Source: Actinomycetota bacterium (GTDB taxonomy: Bacteria > Actinomycetota > Thermoleophilia > Gaiellales > Gaiellaceae). Taken from it: DNA of 51,926 nucleotides. The stretch lies in NCBI GenBank assembly GCA_005888435.1, contig VAXO01000068.1, positions 1 to 51,926 of the forward strand, written 5' to 3'. Positions 15,175-23,973 of this stretch are shown here, one piece after another (position 1 is the stretch's first letter; every line of letters begins with the position of its first letter). The position numbers and the translations under genes are program-made. Below the pieces are notes generated by a model. The model did not search any database and had not been told where the DNA came from. It was given only the letters and a program-made list of their open reading frames with translations.

Positions 15175-15735
15175 GTGGGACGGATCGTGGTCACGGAGTT
15201 CATCTCGCTCGACGGTGTGGTCGAAGGTCCCGGGGGCGGCGAAGACTACAAACACGTCGGCTGGACGTTCGAGTTCGACCGCGGCGACGAGGGCAACAAG
15301 TTCAAGCTCGACGAGCTCGTCGAAGCCGAAGCCCAGCTCCTGGGCCGCAGGACGTACGAGGGGTTCGCGGCGGCATGGCCCGAACGCACCGACGAGTTTG
15401 GCTTCGCCGACAAGATGAACTCGATGCCGAAGTACGTGGTATCGACGACCCTGCAGAATGCCGAGTGGACGAACACCACGATCCTCAGAAGCCTCGACGA
15501 CGTCGCGAAGGCGAGGAACGACGTCGACGGCGTCATGCTCGTCGCCGGCAGTCCACAGCTCGTCCAGGGCCTGCTCGAGCACGATCTGGTCGACGAGCTG
15601 CGGCTGATGGTCTTTCCTGTCGTGCTCGGAACGGGCAAGCGGCTCTGGGGCGAGACGTCGGACAAGAAAGAGTTCAAGCTCGCCGACTCGAAGACCGTCG
15701 GCGAAGGAATCGCGATCCTGACGTTCCGGCGCTGA
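15175..15735 (+). CDS. RibD C-terminal/dihydrofolate reductase-like protein
   Basis: VVTEFISLDGVVEGPGG...LLGRRTYEGFAAAWP...PKYVVSTTL...LVQGLLEHDLVDELRLMVFPVVLGTGKRLW. Confidence 0.92.
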   Translation: MGRIVVTEFISLDGVVEGPGGGEDYKHVGWTFEFDRGDEGNKFKLDELVEAEAQLLGRRTYEGFAAAWPERTDEFGFADKMNSMPKYVVSTTLQNAEWTNTTILRSLDDVAKARNDVDGVMLVAGSPQLVQGLLEHDLVDELRLMVFPVVLGTGKRLWGETSDKKEFKLADSKTVGEGIAILTFRR

Positions 15736-15816: not shown

Positions 15817-16284
15817 CTAGGCGGCCGCGTTTTCTAGGTCCTCAATTACGAGCTTCTTCATCCCCATCATCGCCTGCATGACGCGCTGAGACTTCTCGGC
15901 GTCCGGCTGCTGCAGCAGACGTGGCAGCGCCTTCGGAACGACCTGCCACGGCACGCCGAACCTGTCCTTCAGCCAGCCGCACGGGCCTTCCTCCCCGCCG
16001 TCGGTCAGCTGCTCCCAGTAGCGGTCGACCTCTTCCTGGCTCTCGCACATGATCTGGAACGAGATCGCCTGATTGAACGTGTACTCCGGCCCGCCGTTCA
16101 GGGCGACGAACTCCTGTCCCATCAGCTCGAATCCGACCGTCATCACGGTGCCTTCCTCACGCGGGCCGGCTGAGCCGTAGCGCGTGATCTCGCCGAGCTT
16201 CGAGTCGGGGAAGATCGAGGAGTAAAACCTCGCGGCGTCCTCGCCCTCGGTATCGAACCACAGGCACGTCACGAGTTTGTCCAT
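15817..16284 (-). CDS. VOC family (PhnB-like/3-demethylubiquinone-9 methyltransferase-like fold) protein
   Basis: MDKLVTCLWFDTEGEDAARFYSSIFPDSKLGEITRYG...YTFNQAISFQIMCESQEEVDRYWEQLTDGGEEGPCGWLKDRFGVPWQVVP. Confidence 0.92.
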   Translation of the reverse strand: MDKLVTCLWFDTEGEDAARFYSSIFPDSKLGEITRYGSAGPREEGTVMTVGFELMGQEFVALNGGPEYTFNQAISFQIMCESQEEVDRYWEQLTDGGEEGPCGWLKDRFGVPWQVVPKALPRLLQQPDAEKSQRVMQAMMGMKKLVIEDLENAAA

Positions 16285-16362
16285 GGTCTGGCCGTCCTTT
16301 CTCTGTGCTGACAGATCCATTCTCCTAGACGGCCGCCGTGCCGCAAATTCATCGCCGCGACG

Positions 16363-17586
16363 CTAGGACGTGCGCTGGACCGCCGACCGCGTCCCCCAGG
16401 AGTTGTCCGTGAGGGTCGAGAGCGCGCGAATCCTCAGCGGCACGAGCAGGGCCGCGTGCATGAAGCCGTAGAGCACGAAGAGCAGGAAGGAGAGGCGCCG
16501 TGTGCGGTACATCGCGTAACAGCAGCGCACGAGCGCCATGAACGTGATCGCCATGACGTAGTGCACGAGGTGCCAGGGATCGACCAGCACCGCGAAGAGA
16601 AGTGAGCTGGTGATCGCCAAAGTCAGGAGGAGCGGCAGCAGCGTCTGGACGACCAGCTCGAACACCATGTACGGCGAGCGGCCAAGCAGGTACGGCAGCG
16701 TCCACAGCAGCTCCCGGTAGAAACTCTTGTTCCAGCGCAGCTGCTGCTTGAGGTAGCCACGAAGCGATTCCGGCGCGTTGGTTATGGCCGTCGCGTGCGG
16801 CGCGAAGATCGTGTCGAAGCCGGAGGCCAGCACGAGATTCGTCAGATGGCGGTCGTCTCCGTACGTGCAGGAGATGCCCTTGAACGTCTGGCTGACGTAG
16901 TCCGGCCAGCAGCGCGCCAGCATCTGACGGCGATACGCAGCAAGCGGCCCGGAACAGCAGAGCACGGTGCGGAAGCAGCTCTGAGCGGCGCGCTCCTGGT
17001 TGAAGGCGATCCAGTAACGCATGCCGATCAGGCGCGTGAGGATATTCGTCCGCCAGTTGGTGACGCCGACGTCGCCGGTGACGCCGCCGATCTTCGGGTC
17101 GGCAAAGGGCAGCACGATCTCGCGTACGCCGTCAGGTGCGACGATCGTGTCGGAGTCGATCGTGACGAGGATCTCACCGTGGCAGAGCCCGAAGGCCGCA
17201 TCCTGGGCATGGCGCTTGCCGCGGTTGCGCTCGGGCAAGAGGATCGTCCAGCCGGGCAGCGCGCCGTACTCGCGGTAGATCGGAAGCACCTCGTCGCGAT
17301 TGGGCGAGCAGTCGTCGACGATGTACACGCGGACCTCGCCCTCGTACTCCTGTCCGAGCAGCGAGTCGAAGCACGCCTTGAGACTCTTCGCCTCCTCGTT
17401 GTAGGCGGCGATCAGGATGTCGACGGAAGGTGCGAAGTTGCCGCCGCGCCGTTCACGCTGCGAGCGGCGATGATGTCGGTGCGCAAAGAACGTCTGCAAC
17501 AGGAAGTGGGTGATCACGACGACGGCGTAGGCCGCGAACGTGACGCGGAGGACGTGCAGGAGCAGCTGCGCCGCGAGCGAGCTCAC
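16363..17586 (-). CDS. GT2 membrane glycosyltransferase (NodC/hyaluronan-synthase-like)
   Basis: VDILIAAYNEEAKSLKACFDSLLGQEYEGEVRVYIVDDCSPN...TIDSDT...CTYGDDRHLT...QQLRW; GTGA overlap with the exosortase stop. Confidence 0.9.
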   Translation of the reverse strand: MSSLAAQLLLHVLRVTFAAYAVVVITHFLLQTFFAHRHHRRSQRERRGGNFAPSVDILIAAYNEEAKSLKACFDSLLGQEYEGEVRVYIVDDCSPNRDEVLPIYREYGALPGWTILLPERNRGKRHAQDAAFGLCHGEILVTIDSDTIVAPDGVREIVLPFADPKIGGVTGDVGVTNWRTNILTRLIGMRYWIAFNQERAAQSCFRTVLCCSGPLAAYRRQMLARCWPDYVSQTFKGISCTYGDDRHLTNLVLASGFDTIFAPHATAITNAPESLRGYLKQQLRWNKSFYRELLWTLPYLLGRSPYMVFELVVQTLLPLLLTLAITSSLLFAVLVDPWHLVHYVMAITFMALVRCCYAMYRTRRLSFLLFVLYGFMHAALLVPLRIRALSTLTDNSWGTRSAVQRTS

Positions 17587-19244
17587 GCTCTGTTCACCCG
17601 GACGGACACCATCTGCGTCGCGAGCGCGACGAGCGCACGGGAGAGCGGACGGTTCGGGTCCTCGTCGGGGGCCCGGACATTCAGATAGCCGAGCACGTGA
17701 CGTCGCAGCCACGCCGACGGCGCGTGCGCGGGCGCCCCGGGCCGCGAGAGCGTGGACGCCAGCAGCACGACACGTTCGTGCTCGACCTTGCCCCGGCGGA
17801 GCACGGGCCACTCCCACGCAACGGCGTGCCAGACGGCGTCCTTTGTCTCGTAGACGAAGACGCGCCCTGTCACCCCGTGACCGAGGTCGACGTGGAGCGA
17901 CGTCCGCACGTCGAAGCCGTGGAAGGCGTAGCAGTGCGCGAGCGAGTACGCGTCTAACGCCCCGAGATCGGGGCTCAGGACGGCGTCCGTCCAGACGGTG
18001 AAGCGTCCGCGCTCGGCCGCTGCACCCGTGGGGCGAAGGCGGTAACGGATCCACGTCGAGTGCGCGCCGTAGTACGGCGCCGCCCAGCCGATCCGCGCGA
18101 GCCGGCGCACCCTCCACCCCGGCCCGGCCGAGGGACGGTCGACGAACGCGGCGACGGCGGGCCGGCCATTCTCGTCCAGCCCCTTGGCCGCCACTCCGAG
18201 CTGTCCATCGGCGAGCGCGACCGCAAAGGATGCCGCGGCGACCACTACGAAGCGGACGGCGAAGCGACCGGGCGTCGCTTGCTGGGCGGGCGGCGCCGTC
18301 CGCGCGAGCGGCGAGTCGACGAGCTCGAGATCGTGCTCGTCGAAGTGGCGCCGATGCAGCCCAAAGCGCGGCAGCAGCCGAACGAGCACGACGAATGCAA
18401 CGTTCAGGGTGAGGATGCCCGCTATCGGGTGGAGTAGGTCGAAGGCAGCGTGCTCGCCGAGCGCGCGCGCTGTCAGCAGCACAACCACGATTCGCACGAC
18501 ATTCAGCGCCCAGACGAGGCACGCGCCGAAGAGCAGCCACACAAGCCGTCGCACGATCCGGCCGCGAACGAGCCAGAGCGCTGCGAGACCGACGACGCCG
18601 AAGCCGACGAGGCCGTTCACGCCCGAGCATGCGCTCGCCACGCTAACGACGATCTGGCCGCCCGCGTGCGAGACGACGTAGCGCGAGCCGCCGGAGCCGC
18701 CGACGGGAGCGGCGGCCTGGGTGAGGGCGGCCATATGTTCCACGGCCCACGCGGTGGACTGCGTGAAGGAGGACAACGCGTGCTCGAGGACGGCGTCGTA
18801 TGGCAGCGGCCAGGCGAGCAGGAGGAAGAGCACGGGGAAACCGAGGGGAATCAGCGCGCGCGATCCGAAGAGCAGGACGACGACCGCGGCAGCGAAGAGC
18901 GGCAGCGTCAGCAGGTCGAGGCGCATCGCCCAGAAGTACTTCGACCAGAGCGTGGGGCCTGCCGCCACCAGGCCGAGCGCAAGCGTGAGGAGCACGCCTG
19001 CGAGGACGTAGTCGAAGCGCCCGAGCCGCAGGAAGGCGACGAACCTGTGCCTGCGCAGCGCCGCGTAGAGCAGCGCCGCCGCGATCGGCGGCACGAGGAC
19101 GAGGTCCGCAAGCGGCGTGTCGTAGCGCCAGCTTGCCGCGAGCGTGCCGAAGGAGAAGTGGTAGGCGAGCCCGACGGCGGCGATCGCCGCCGCAAGGCGC
19201 AGGCCCGCCGGAACGGGCCCGGCGAGGTCGTCGCCTCGGCGCAT
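17583..19244 (-). CDS. Exosortase/archaeosortase family protein with C-terminal EpsI-like extension
   Basis: Multi-TM; catalytic-type Cys in SACSGVNGL, Arg in LNVVRI, His in LLHPIAG; periplasmic-like C-terminal domain. Confidence 0.85.
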   Translation of the reverse strand: MRRGDDLAGPVPAGLRLAAAIAAVGLAYHFSFGTLAASWRYDTPLADLVLVPPIAAALLYAALRRHRFVAFLRLGRFDYVLAGVLLTLALGLVAAGPTLWSKYFWAMRLDLLTLPLFAAAVVVLLFGSRALIPLGFPVLFLLLAWPLPYDAVLEHALSSFTQSTAWAVEHMAALTQAAAPVGGSGGSRYVVSHAGGQIVVSVASACSGVNGLVGFGVVGLAALWLVRGRIVRRLVWLLFGACLVWALNVVRIVVVLLTARALGEHAAFDLLHPIAGILTLNVAFVVLVRLLPRFGLHRRHFDEHDLELVDSPLARTAPPAQQATPGRFAVRFVVVAAASFAVALADGQLGVAAKGLDENGRPAVAAFVDRPSAGPGWRVRRLARIGWAAPYYGAHSTWIRYRLRPTGAAAERGRFTVWTDAVLSPDLGALDAYSLAHCYAFHGFDVRTSLHVDLGHGVTGRVFVYETKDAVWHAVAWEWPVLRRGKVEHERVVLLASTLSRPGAPAHAPSAWLRRHVLGYLNVRAPDEDPNRPLSRALVALATQMVSVRVNRA

Positions 19245-19247
19245 CGG

Positions 19248-19708
19248 CTAGTGCAGGCGCCTGCGCCGACTCCGCAGCAAGAACGCGGAGGTCGCGAGCA
19301 GGCTGAGCGGCCCGGTGCACAGGACGCGCCGGTGATGGTCTGCGACCACGCATGCTCACCGGCCATATCGAGGCGGTAGGCGAACGCGTCGAGCCCCGAC
19401 ACGTCGAAGCTGTAGGCGTATGCGTGCTCCGCGCCGTCGCCACGGAACGTCGCCGCACGGCCGGTCGACGCCCACCCGGTTCCGCCGCGGCCGCGATAGG
19501 AGAGCTCGAGCCGGTACGCCTCTCCCGCCGGCGCCTTCATCATCACCGTGCCCGTGATCGTGTCGCCGACGCACCCCGCGTCGATGCGGATCTTCGTGCT
19601 GCCGGGACCGGGATCCGACGGCGACTGATGCGGCGGCGGGCTCGCGACCGCGCTCGAGGCGCTCGTCAGGAAGAGTGCTGCGGCAAGGGCGATGCGTTTT
19701 GTCGACAC
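19248..19708 (-). pseudogene. Secreted protein with signal peptide, probable exosortase substrate; TM/poly-Arg tail out of frame by one base
   Basis: MSTKRIALAAALFLTSASSAVASPPP...AGEHAWSQTITG then, in a -1-shifted frame, VLCTGPLSLLATSAFLLRSRRRRLH* ending 3 nt before the exosortase ATG. Confidence 0.65.
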
Positions 19709-19820: not shown

Positions 19821-21269
19821 CTACTCGGCTTCGATCGCCGGCACCGGTTCGGCGCCGTGCATCGCGGCGGGCATCTCCGCGCGGATGAGCGCCGCAGCGA
19901 CGACGATCGCCGCGACGGCGAACGCCGCCCCAATCATGAACGCGAGGTGGTAGCCGCCGTTGAGGGCGGCGAGCGGGTCGTGCCCCGAGCTGGACAGGCT
20001 GTCCGTCCGGGACGCCGCCGCGCTGGCCAACACGGCGAGGCCGAGCGCCCCGCCGAACATGAACGAAGTGTTCACGACGCCCGATGCGAGGCCGGCCTCG
20101 CTCGGCTGGACCCCGCTCATCGCCGCGAGCAGGATCGGATTGAACGTGATGCCGCCTCCGATGCCGAGCACGAGCATCCCCGGCAGGACGTCGACGAAGT
20201 AGTTCCCGTCGACAGGAGCGCGCGCGAAGAGGAGCAGCGCAAGTAGATAGAGCGCAAGCCCACCGATGAGCGGCGGCTTGATGCCGAAGCGCAACACAAG
20301 CTTGTCCGATAACAGCAACGACGACGCACCCCACAGGATCGTGCCGGGAAGAAATGCAAAGCCAACCTCGAGCGCGCTGTACCCCAGCACGCGCTGCAGA
20401 TAGAGCGCCGACAGGAAGAACCAGGCGAACATCGCCGCGGCGAGCAGTGCGCCCGTGATGTTCGCACTCGCGACATTGCGGATCTTCCAGATGCCAAGGG
20501 GCATCAGCGGAGTCGCGGCGCGGGTCTCGATGAAGATGAAGGCTGCGAGCAGCACGACCGCCGCGCCGAGCATGCCGAGCGTCTGTCCCGACGTCCAGCC
20601 CTTCTGGTTGCCATTCACGATCGCGTAGACCGCAAGCATCAGCGACGCGGTGATCGTGATCGCGCCTGCGACGTCGAGGCTCCCGCGCTTGATCGCAGCA
20701 TCCGGCGGCAGCAGCAGACGGCAAAGAAGCACGGCCGCGATGCCGACTGGCACGTTGACGAGGAAGATCCAGTGCCAGCTCAGCAGGTCGGTCAGGGTGC
20801 CGCCGAGCAGCACGCCGGCGGCGCCGCCTCCGGAGAGGACAAAACCGATCATCCCCATCGCCTTGGCGCGCTCCGCCGGCTCGGTGAACAGGATCATGAT
20901 CAGCGAGAGCGCGATCGCCGAGACGACGGCGGCTCCGAGACCCTGGATGGCGCGGGCGACGATGAGGAACGTCTGCGAATTCGAGAGCCCACAGAGGAGC
21001 GACGCGATCGTGAACTCCGCAATGCCGAACAGGAACACGCGCTTCTGGCCGAAGAGGTCTCCGAGGCGCCCCGCCAGCAGCAAGAAGCCGCCGAAGGTGA
21101 GCAGGTAGGCGTTCACGACCCAGGCGAGCGACGCCTCGGAGAAGCCGAGGTCGGTGCGAATCGACGGCAGGGCGACGTTCACGATCGTCGAGTCCAGCAC
21201 GATCATCAGATCGGCCAGACACAACACGTAGAGGGCGAGCCAGCGCCTGCGGTCGGTGAGCTCAGTCAT
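19821..21269 (-). CDS. MFS transporter, DHA2
   Basis: RRWLALYVLCLADLMIVLDSTIVNVALPSIRTDLGFSEASLAWVVNAYLLTFGG. Confidence 0.93.
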   Translation of the reverse strand: MTELTDRRRWLALYVLCLADLMIVLDSTIVNVALPSIRTDLGFSEASLAWVVNAYLLTFGGFLLLAGRLGDLFGQKRVFLFGIAEFTIASLLCGLSNSQTFLIVARAIQGLGAAVVSAIALSLIMILFTEPAERAKAMGMIGFVLSGGGAAGVLLGGTLTDLLSWHWIFLVNVPVGIAAVLLCRLLLPPDAAIKRGSLDVAGAITITASLMLAVYAIVNGNQKGWTSGQTLGMLGAAVVLLAAFIFIETRAATPLMPLGIWKIRNVASANITGALLAAAMFAWFFLSALYLQRVLGYSALEVGFAFLPGTILWGASSLLLSDKLVLRFGIKPPLIGGLALYLLALLLFARAPVDGNYFVDVLPGMLVLGIGGGITFNPILLAAMSGVQPSEAGLASGVVNTSFMFGGALGLAVLASAAASRTDSLSSSGHDPLAALNGGYHLAFMIGAAFAVAAIVVAAALIRAEMPAAMHGAEPVPAIEAE

Positions 21270-21558
21270 GACGATGAGTTTTGCCGGAGTCCTCAGTCTG
21301 TATCACGTGGATTGCGATCTGCGCCATGTCCGCTGCGCGGACGTTGGCACCGTGGGTGCGCTGGCGCGGGCGCACCTGAACGCCCGTCGGCAAGGAGTAC
21401 GTCTCCACGTCCTGCATGCGCCGCCTGAGCTCCAAAAGCTGATCGCCTTCGCGGGCCTCGAGGAGGTGCTACTCGGGAGGGACCGGGGGGAGCCCGAAGA
21501 GCGGGAAGAGCCGCTCGGTGTCGAGGAACGCCGTAAAGCCGACGATCCGACCGTCTGA
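21256..21558 (+). CDS. STAS-domain (anti-anti-sigma-like) protein, start uncertain
   Basis: [57 protein letters not shown] resembles STAS; 3' end antisense to the ECF gene. Confidence 0.65.
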
Positions 21559-22446
21559 GAGCTCCAGCACTTGTAGCGCCCACGGCTCGAAGCTCCCTCC
21601 GGGACCGCTCGGTCGGTACTGGCCGAACGCCGGCAGGCCGTTCGCGACGGTCGGGATGAGGCGTGAGCCCTTACAGCCGATGCCCGGTCCTGTCCACCAG
21701 CGCAGGATGTCCTCGCGGCCCAGCAGCCACATCTCGTACGGTGGCATCGACTGCTTCGCGTCCTCGTGCAGGAGCGACGTGATCGCATCCATGTCGTAGG
21801 CCTCGAACGCCTTGACGTAGCGCTTCAGCAGTGCCTGCTGCTCCTCGTCGAGCGGGTCGAGCGGCTCGCTCGGCGTCAGCTCGCTCGAATCGAGGGACGC
21901 ACGCGCTCGCTGCAGCGAGCTGTTCACAGATGCGACGCTCGTCTCGAGCAGCTCCGCCACCTCGTTGGCGCGCCAGCGGAGCGCCTCGCGCAGGATCAGC
22001 ACGGCGCGCTGCTGCGGCGGCAGATGCTGCAGGGCGGCGACGAACGCGAGCCTGAGCGTCTCGCGCTCCTCCGCGAGCTGCGCGGGGTCGCCTTCGCCCG
22101 GCAGGACTTGGCCGTCGGGGATCGGCTCGAGCCAGCTCGCCTCGCCCCGCGTCGTCAGCGGGCTGTCGAGCCCGCCGGGATCGCCCAGCTCGAGCGGGCG
22201 AATCCGCCGCTCCTTGCCGTTGAGCATGTCGAGACACACGTTCGTCGCAATCCGATACAGCCACGACTTCAGCGCCGCGCGACCCTCGAAGCGGTCGATC
22301 CCGCGCCAGGCCCGCACCATCGTCTCCTGCACCGCGTCCTCGGCGTCGAACGCCGAGCCCAACATCCGGTAGCAGTAGCCCGTCAGCTCCCGGCGATGGC
22401 TCTCGAGCTCTCGTTCGAGCTCGGGTGACTGGGCGGCCGTGGTCAC
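21469..22446 (-). CDS. ECF RNA polymerase sigma factor with C-terminal SnoaL-like domain
   Basis: [51 protein letters not shown]...[42 protein letters not shown]-terminal [31 protein letters not shown]. Confidence 0.92.
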
Positions 22447-22524
22447 CCGACCAGCCTACCGATGAGTTCTCGGACCGGCCTCCGTCTAAGGGATGTGACT
22501 GCGAATTTCAAGGAGGCCACCAGC

Positions 22525-23973
22525 ATGAGTGACACCACAGACAGCCGAACGCGCTGGCTTGCGCTCTACGTTCTTTGCCTGGCTAGCTTGATGATCGTGC
22601 TCGACGTCACGATCGTTGGCGTCGCGCTCCCGTCGATCCGCGAGGACCTCGGGTTCTCCGAGACGTCGCTCGCCTGGGTCGTGAACGGCTATCTGCTCAC
22701 CTACGGCGGCTTCCTGTTGCTCGGCGGACGGCTCGGCGACCTGTTCGGACACCGGCGGCTCTTCATCGCCGGCATCTCGACCTTCACGCTCGCCTCGCTC
22801 GCGTGCGGCCTCGCAACCACGCAGTGGTTCCTGATCGCGGCGCGCTCGGTGCAGGGGGTCGGCGGCGCGGTCGCGTCGGCCGTGTCGCTGTCGCTGATGA
22901 TGGGCCTGTTCACCGAGCCGGCCGACCGCGCCAAAGCGATGGGGATCTTCGGCTTCGTCGCCTCCGGCGGCGGCAGCATCGGCGTCTTGCTCGGCGGGAT
23001 TCTCACCGACGCGTTGAGCTGGCACTGGATCTTCCTCGTCAACTTCCCGATCGGCGTGCTCGTCGTCCTGTTGACGCTCCGCCTCATCCCGGGTGCAGGA
23101 CCCGTCGCCGCGGAGCGGCGGCTCGACGTGGCCGGCGCAATCACCGTCACGGCGGCGCTGATGCTCGCTGTCTACGCGATCGTGAACGGAAACCACAACG
23201 GCTGGACGTCGGCGCAGACGCTGGGAGTGCTCGGCGCAGCCGTCGCCGTATTTGGTGCTTTCCTCGCAATCGAATCGCACGTGCGCGCTCCGCTCGTGCC
23301 GCTCCGCCTCTTTCGGCTGCGCAACCTGTCGACTGCGAGCGGCGTCGGCGTCCTGTGGTCGGGCGCGATGTTCGCCTGGTTCTTCATGGTGGCGCTGTAC
23401 CTGCAGCTCGTGCTGGGCTACAGCCCGCTGCAGATCGGCCTCGCGTTCCTGCCCGGCAACCTGATCATGGGCGCGCTGTCGATCGGACTGTCGGCGAAGC
23501 TCGTGCTGCGCTACGGAATCCGGAAGCCGCTCGCGACCGGGCTCCTGCTCGCCTCCGCCGGACTGCTGCTCCTGGTGCGTGCGCCGGTCGACGGGAGCTT
23601 CGTCGCCGACGTCCTGCCCAGCATGATCCTGCTCGGGCTCGGCGCCGGCATGGCGTTCAACCCGGTGCTCCTCGCCGCGATGGGCGACGTCGAGCCGGCC
23701 GAGGCCGGCCTCGCGTCCGGCGTGGTGAACACGTCGTTCATGATGGGCGGCGCGGTCGGGCTCGCGGTGCTCGCGAGCGCCGCGGCCTCACGGACGAGCA
23801 CGCTCGTCGACGCGGGTCACAGCGAGGTCGCTGCGCTGACGGGCGGCTACCACGTCGCATTTCTGCTCGGCGCGGTGTTCGCCGCGGCCGCGGCGGTCAT
23901 CGGCGCGACGCTGATTCGCGAGAGCGCGCCGGCGCAAGAGGTAGTCGGCGAGCCTGCGGTCGAGAGCTGCTGA
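22525..23973 (+). CDS. MFS transporter, DHA2 (paralogue of 19821..21269)
   Basis: TRWLALYVLCLASLMIVLDVTIVGVALPSIREDLGFSETSLAWVVNGYLLTYGG; AAGGAGG SD. Confidence 0.93.
   Translation: MSDTTDSRTRWLALYVLCLASLMIVLDVTIVGVALPSIREDLGFSETSLAWVVNGYLLTYGGFLLLGGRLGDLFGHRRLFIAGISTFTLASLACGLATTQWFLIAARSVQGVGGAVASAVSLSLMMGLFTEPADRAKAMGIFGFVASGGGSIGVLLGGILTDALSWHWIFLVNFPIGVLVVLLTLRLIPGAGPVAAERRLDVAGAITVTAALMLAVYAIVNGNHNGWTSAQTLGVLGAAVAVFGAFLAIESHVRAPLVPLRLFRLRNLSTASGVGVLWSGAMFAWFFMVALYLQLVLGYSPLQIGLAFLPGNLIMGALSIGLSAKLVLRYGIRKPLATGLLLASAGLLLLVRAPVDGSFVADVLPSMILLGLGAGMAFNPVLLAAMGDVEPAEAGLASGVVNTSFMMGGAVGLAVLASAAASRTSTLVDAGHSEVAALTGGYHVAFLLGAVFAAAAAVIGATLIRESAPAQEVVGEPAVESC

Follow-up and report, generated by a model that had tools for sequence, protein, structure and literature searches.

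A probable single-substrate exosortase unit in Actinomycetota, with a substrate gene apparently disrupted by a 37-nt deletion

Why would an exosortase in the genome of a soil actinobacterium sit beside a single small secreted protein that shows no PEP motif? The question is raised by a compact locus in the window (the whole stretch of DNA that was analysed, 51,926 nucleotides), in which the initial annotation had proposed a substrate, an exosortase and a GT2 as one translationally coupled unit. The gene set and the gene order were as described, but the substrate gene is frameshifted and the unit is not intact here. We consider it probable that the locus represents an actinobacterial exosortase unit dedicated to a single substrate, and that the gene for this substrate was broken by a 37-nt deletion. 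The unit and its flanks contain the following features.

15817..16320, minus strand: flank, outside the unit; PF06983 (3-demethylubiquinone methyltransferase-like) protein
16363-17586, minus strand: GT2, 407 aa, NodC/class I hyaluronan synthase type (TIGR04242, PF13641, 7sp7, motifs)
17583-19244, minus strand: exosortase, 553 aa (PF09721, TIGR04178, active-site triad, hydropathy)
19245..19310, minus strand: substrate tail remnant PLSLLATSAFLLRSRRRRLH followed by a stop, read in the exosortase frame and not in that of the signal peptide (frame translation; likeness to the L005 tail)
19304..19318, minus strand: deletion junction, lacking 37 nt that are present in G009 (L005), the VPEAP codons among them; frame shifted (DNA alignment, frame translation, GC3 switch)
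19318..19708, minus strand: 5' portion of the substrate gene with the signal peptide and a Cys-bracketed secreted domain, in frame to about ...ASCAP (ORF, GC3, BLASTP)
19821..21269, minus strand: flank, outside the unit; MFS transporter

The exosortase gene is an intact ORF without internal stops. Its product scored above the cut-offs of both Pfam PF09721 (82.6 bits, cut-off 25.7) and NCBIfam TIGR04178 (48.9 bits, cut-off 23), and all three active-site residues were found (Cys206, Arg251 and His272), a triad that was invariant in 14/14 compared exosortases. With these models exceeded and these residues present, the protein belongs to the exosortase/archaeosortase superfamily, and the Cys/Arg/His signature that had been read from the sequence was confirmed together with the HMM assignment. 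Hydropathy indicated an EpsH-type transmembrane core followed by a further transmembrane segment and then a C-terminal domain. The protein fell far below every curated NCBIfam cut-off for the named Xrt subfamilies (XrtA-XrtX, XrtG); the best named score was for XrtV (57.1 vs cut-off 313), with XrtA at 50.4 (cut-off 208) and XrtG at 21.7 (cut-off 102.75). A sequence search of solved structures returned no match to the exosortase, and AlphaFold, run for it with three sequences, gave a mean pLDDT of 53, a model too poor for fold searches.

The C-terminal domain (17583-18300, minus strand) carries a near-invariant CYxxHG motif with Cys438 and was recognised by no family model; CYxxH was present in 13/14 of the compared exosortases, and its Cys is possibly a second functional cysteine outside the membrane. 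This extension had been described as EpsI-like. It does follow the exosortase core and one more transmembrane segment, and by eye the spacing C-x4-G-[FYW] looks like that of EpsI, but no homology to EpsI/DUF3485 (PF11984) was obtained with Pfam, NCBIfam or hhalign, including an input of 14 sequences and a comparison with a DUF3485 protein. Because the clade lies below every named Xrt cut-off and has a CYxxHG C-terminal domain of its own, we call it a new variant.

The downstream GT2 gene is also intact, and its GTG start shares the 4 nt GTGA with the end of the exosortase gene, as had been noted. The best named model was TIGR04242 (NodC, 352.3 bits, below its equivalog cut-off of 550); in addition, the protein matched PF13641 (92 bits) and the structure of a viral hyaluronan synthase (7sp7, E=1.2e-52). 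The motifs DSD, GDD and QQLRW were all present, and these DxD, GDD and QxxRW elements, together with the homology to a solved hyaluronan synthase, identify a processive membrane GT2 of the hyaluronan/chitin synthase type. The likeness to NodC chitooligosaccharide synthase and class I hyaluronan synthase that had been claimed is therefore upheld, whereas the sub-equivalog score sets the enzyme apart from NodC itself and its product is putative. Overlapping exosortase and GT2 genes were found in the window, in L005 and in L006, and overlapping substrate and exosortase genes in L060 and L061. When the window was compared with G009, the exosortase had a pairwise dN/dS of about 0.25 and the GT2 one of about 0.22, values that mostly reflect the time before the lesion and so show past constraint and do not date the lesion.

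The substrate gene was expected from the initial annotation to encode a small signal-peptide protein with a TM-Arg tail. A signal-peptide ORF does begin at a GTG codon at 19708 and reads ...QTITGASCAPGRSACSRPP..., but the tail is in a second frame and the two do not form one ORF. The signal-peptide frame (...AWSQTITGASCAPGRSACSRPP...) stays open until 18908, that is, into the exosortase gene, and the tail that had been quoted (VLCTGPLSLLATSAFLLRSRRRRLH, then a stop) lies in the exosortase's own frame. GC at third codon positions (GC3) is high in the signal-peptide frame to about 19310 and from there in the tail frame; both pieces were therefore once coding and are now out of register. When the window was aligned with the DNA of a congener (G009, locus L005), a single 37-nt gap appeared at the junction, between TGTGCACCGGG and CCGCTCAGCCTGCTCG. 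The VPEAP codons are lost in this gap and the frame is shifted, so that the encoded product would not be sortable. The 5' part matched the intact L006 substrate by BLASTP (E=5e-12 for the pair), and the score of the remnant tail against the L005 tail PLSLLGTASLLLRRRASH was reached by 16/5000 block shuffles. Since the signal-peptide frame no longer ends just before the exosortase, translational coupling of these two genes has presumably been lost in the window.

The intact orthologues in G016 and G122 are single-frame secreted proteins that end in ...SCAPxxQVPEAPxxxLLPxSxxG..LL..RRR, a PEP-CTERM-type tail. The first (L006; another genus of the same family) has 163 aa, ends in SSCAPGHQVPEAPLSLLLPVSVLGIGGLLAARNRRRSAAS and precedes an exosortase that is 51% identical to that of the window; the second, from another family in the order, has 247 aa and ends in SCAPSAQVPEAPRPILLPLSIVGTFGLLGLVAYRRRRNPTTTA. 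Within the genus, the tail of the L005 substrate reads SCAPGLQVPEAPLAVLLPLSLLGTASLLLRRRASH. Directly upstream of orthologous exosortases we found single-frame substrates with VPEAP (G016, G122), VPESP (G693), VSESP (G930, G882), VPDVP (G479) and VSEAA (G917); the tail in G853 carries a weak VDEVV version. Alignment places a PEP-type motif, a hydrophobic stretch and a basic end in the intact relatives, and what the window has lost is precisely this conserved motif. Homologous loci keep the small TM-Arg-tailed protein, a condition on which the initial annotation had staked its reading; its statement that the substrate has no PEP motif does not hold for intact relatives, which have VPEAP, VPESP or VSESP. 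In the window, the missing motif is probably the result of a lesion and not of design.

How many such substrates does a genome hold? Across the genome of the window and those of G009, G010 and G016, no match to the PEP-CTERM model TIGR02595 exceeded 16 bits; the model missed even the known tails, and none of the CTERM models (TIGR02595 and others) scored the clade's tails above its own cut-off. A custom tail profile was therefore used. It was built from the three tails of G122, G016 and G009, the same ones that it recovers, so that the finding lies in the lack of further matches: each of these genomes gave exactly one strong match (E 1e-19 to 1e-24), and the next best had an E-value of 0.17. 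A single substrate per genome, as proposed, is thus supported in three relatives, and the several targets per genome that are a trait of PEP-CTERM/EpsH systems were not seen. In the window genome the profile found no second tail protein below E 0.2; this genome is a MAG (88.75% complete, 144 contigs), a second substrate may sit in its missing part, and the absence is accordingly no proof.

Damage to the substrate gene is not confined to the window. The locus or a remnant of it was present in three genomes of the genus (that of the window, G009 and G010), none of which has an undamaged substrate gene, and the damage takes a different form in each. In G009 (L005) the substrate frame breaks before DAYAY, and the exosortase has a 27-nt deletion that removes the CY of the CYxxHG motif; in G010 (L029) the substrate is cut down to a signal peptide joined almost directly to the tail VPTALVVPAALLATWATLLFRSR, with an exosortase fragment beside it. 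Pfam gave no confirmation of a possible IS element next to the copy in G009.

The RibD_C gene (15175-15735) and the MFS gene (19821-21269) mark a matching region in G009 that has no exosortase unit, and the G009 copy of the unit lies on a different contig from this region; the unit thus has a patchy occurrence and no constant position, which is consistent with transfer and loss. The flanking MFS, sigma-factor and RibD_C genes have 72-80% DNA identity and are partly syntenic in congeners, and GC is uniform along the window. On one side lie two divergent paralogous MFS transporters (19821-21269, minus strand; 22462-23973, plus strand; about 73% DNA identity), and between them is an ECF sigma factor that contains a SnoaL-like domain (21469-22446, minus strand); the whole block is contiguous in G009.

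A family-level search found the exosortase or part of it in 4/103 genomes, and PF09721 matched at E<=1e-5 in 4/399 sampled genomes of the class and 13/398 of the phylum; in the order to which G693 belongs, 10/219 genomes had a relative of this architecture. Substrate, exosortase and GT2 adjoin one another in G016, G693, G930, G882, G853, G479 and G917, and also in the damaged copies of the window and G009. Distant Actinomycetota share this gene order, with the tails VPESP, VSESP, VPDVP and VSEAA. For five of the 14 exosortases compared, no substrate was seen immediately upstream. Four of them (G768, G867, G868 and G883) also showed no GT2 immediately downstream; the fifth, G814, has a gene that is GT2-like by eye. 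The pairing is therefore common but not obligatory. Two of these relatives, L100 (G867) and L103 (G883), lie directly 3' of a gene that by eye encodes a phosphate-type ABC ATPase, with no substrate upstream and no GT2 seen downstream. The exosortase of G575 (VPEP tail, DUF3485 neighbour) was left out as a classical diderm type and perhaps contamination. Elsewhere in the phylum, XrtS-like (L064, G572), XrtP-like (L067, G746) and XrtG-like (L062, G415) actinobacterial exosortases are each accompanied by a GT2 and one small tail protein, which suggests that the pairing of these three elements is general in the phylum.

Several other explanations of the locus have to be weighed. The missing 37 nt could be an artefact of metagenome assembly or consensus, in which case the organism's unit would be functional and its VPEAP-type substrate unbroken. 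In favour of an artefact are the fragmented state of the MAG, the separate frame break in the same gene of G009, and an exosortase and a GT2 that look well kept; a clean deletion of 37 nt is, however, atypical of short-read error, and the damage of three congeners in three ways, including the truncated exosortase of G010, fits real decay. We infer that the deletion is in the DNA, and we regard the artefact as unlikely, though the most serious of the alternatives. We attach less weight, and only a small chance, to the idea that the exosortase is kept for other, unrecognised substrates in trans and that the adjacent one is expendable. That idea would account for an exosortase and a GT2 that have no stops and low dN/dS, and for the exosortases of G768, G867, G868 and G883 that have no substrate directly upstream, but the tail profile found no second tail above noise in the genome of the window or in G009, G016 and G122.

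Could the two frames instead be joined by programmed ribosomal frameshifting, giving a real tail that has no PEP motif? Coding GC3 in both halves and the hydrophobic stretch and Arg cluster kept in the remnant tail are compatible with this. The G009 gene, however, would need a shift in the other direction and at another place, the intact relatives need none, and the stretch that is missing is the conserved motif itself; frameshifting thus seems very improbable. We rate lower still the idea that the contig is contamination from a diderm bacterium. It is suggested by the fact that PEP-CTERM exosortases were in 2006 reported only from outer-membrane bacteria (PMC1569441), yet it is largely refuted by the flanking synteny (genes 72-80% identical in DNA and partly syntenic in congeners), to which are added the uniform GC along the window and the relatives of the unit in many Actinomycetota genomes.

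If the locus is a dedicated unit with a broken substrate gene, as we think probable, the families and the relatives allow a model of how the intact form might work. Sec would export the small protein, which its C-terminal V[PS]E[AS]P-hydrophobic-Arg tail would retain in the membrane, and the exosortase (through Cys206/Arg251/His272) would cut at or near the V[PS]E[AS]P motif and pass the new C-terminus of the substrate to an acceptor. The membrane GT2 is predicted to polymerise and extrude a beta-linked, probably amino-sugar glycan, which could be this acceptor or else a matrix that the protein joins. In the window, loss of the recognition motif would have left an unsortable product, and an exosortase and a GT2 without a partner. 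We know of no acceptor for bacterial exosortases. Substrates of archaeosortases are lipid-anchored after cleavage (PMC7157517), and transfer to an acceptor is therefore a reasonable model for exosortases as well. The recurring order of substrate, exosortase and GT2 suggests that a glycan is part of the reaction. Tentatively, as a possibility that we think has perhaps a minor chance of being right, an uncharacterised Actinomycetota exosortase subfamily (EpsH-type core plus CYxxHG domain) may join one V[PS]E[AS]P-tailed protein to the glycan of its own hyaluronan/chitin-type synthase; this would be protein-polysaccharide conjugation outside the outer-membrane world, lost target-first in the genus. 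With a single substrate, a single enzyme and a single glycan synthase, such a unit is the minimal set for testing the exosortase acceptor; the intact copies in G016, G693, G930 and G882 show which proteins would serve, and the damaged copies in three congeners provide a natural loss-of-function series.

Finally, we compared the unit with known systems. The 2006 survey of PEP-CTERM/EpsH systems (XrtA type; Haft et al. 2006, PMC1569441) found them only in outer-membrane bacteria and not in Actinomycetes, and the median number of targets was eight. The unit shares with them the EpsH-type Cys/Arg/His protease and, in its relatives, secreted targets with a PEP-type motif, a hydrophobic stretch and an Arg cluster; it differs in being actinobacterial, in having one adjacent target and in lying outside a large EPS cluster, and both its exosortase (below the XrtA, XrtB and EpsH cut-offs) and the tails of its clade (below that of TIGR02595) fall short of the corresponding models. 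A search of a limited literature collection gave nothing relevant on actinobacterial exosortases, XrtP or an exosortase together with a hyaluronan synthase.

NCBIfam already curates Gram-positive pairs of an exosortase and a GT, namely XrtG (TIGR03110/TIGR03111) and XrtP (NF053846). The XrtG system, as in L062 (G415), likewise combines an exosortase with a neighbouring GT2 and a small secreted protein that ends in a transmembrane tail, but XrtG is a short core (about 190 aa), whereas a long C-terminal domain and a motif of the VPE type mark the clade of the window; besides the low XrtG score given above, the GT of the window reached 53 vs 364. The XrtP system, as in L067 (G746), is again an Actinomycetota exosortase with a partner GT2 and a tail protein; the GT of this locus scored 514 bits against NF053846 (cut-off 520), and both L062 and L067 lie somewhat below the formal cut-offs. 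The GT2 of the window, in contrast, had no NF053846 match at E<=1 and is NodC-like instead. Since XrtG and XrtP systems are curated, the idea of an exosortase working with a GT is less unusual than claimed in the initial annotation, which had spoken of an unusual actinobacterial protein-sorting and glycan-coupling system: a unit of this kind is indeed present in Actinomycetota, and it joins a kind of system that XrtG/TIGR03111 and XrtP/NF053846 already represent.
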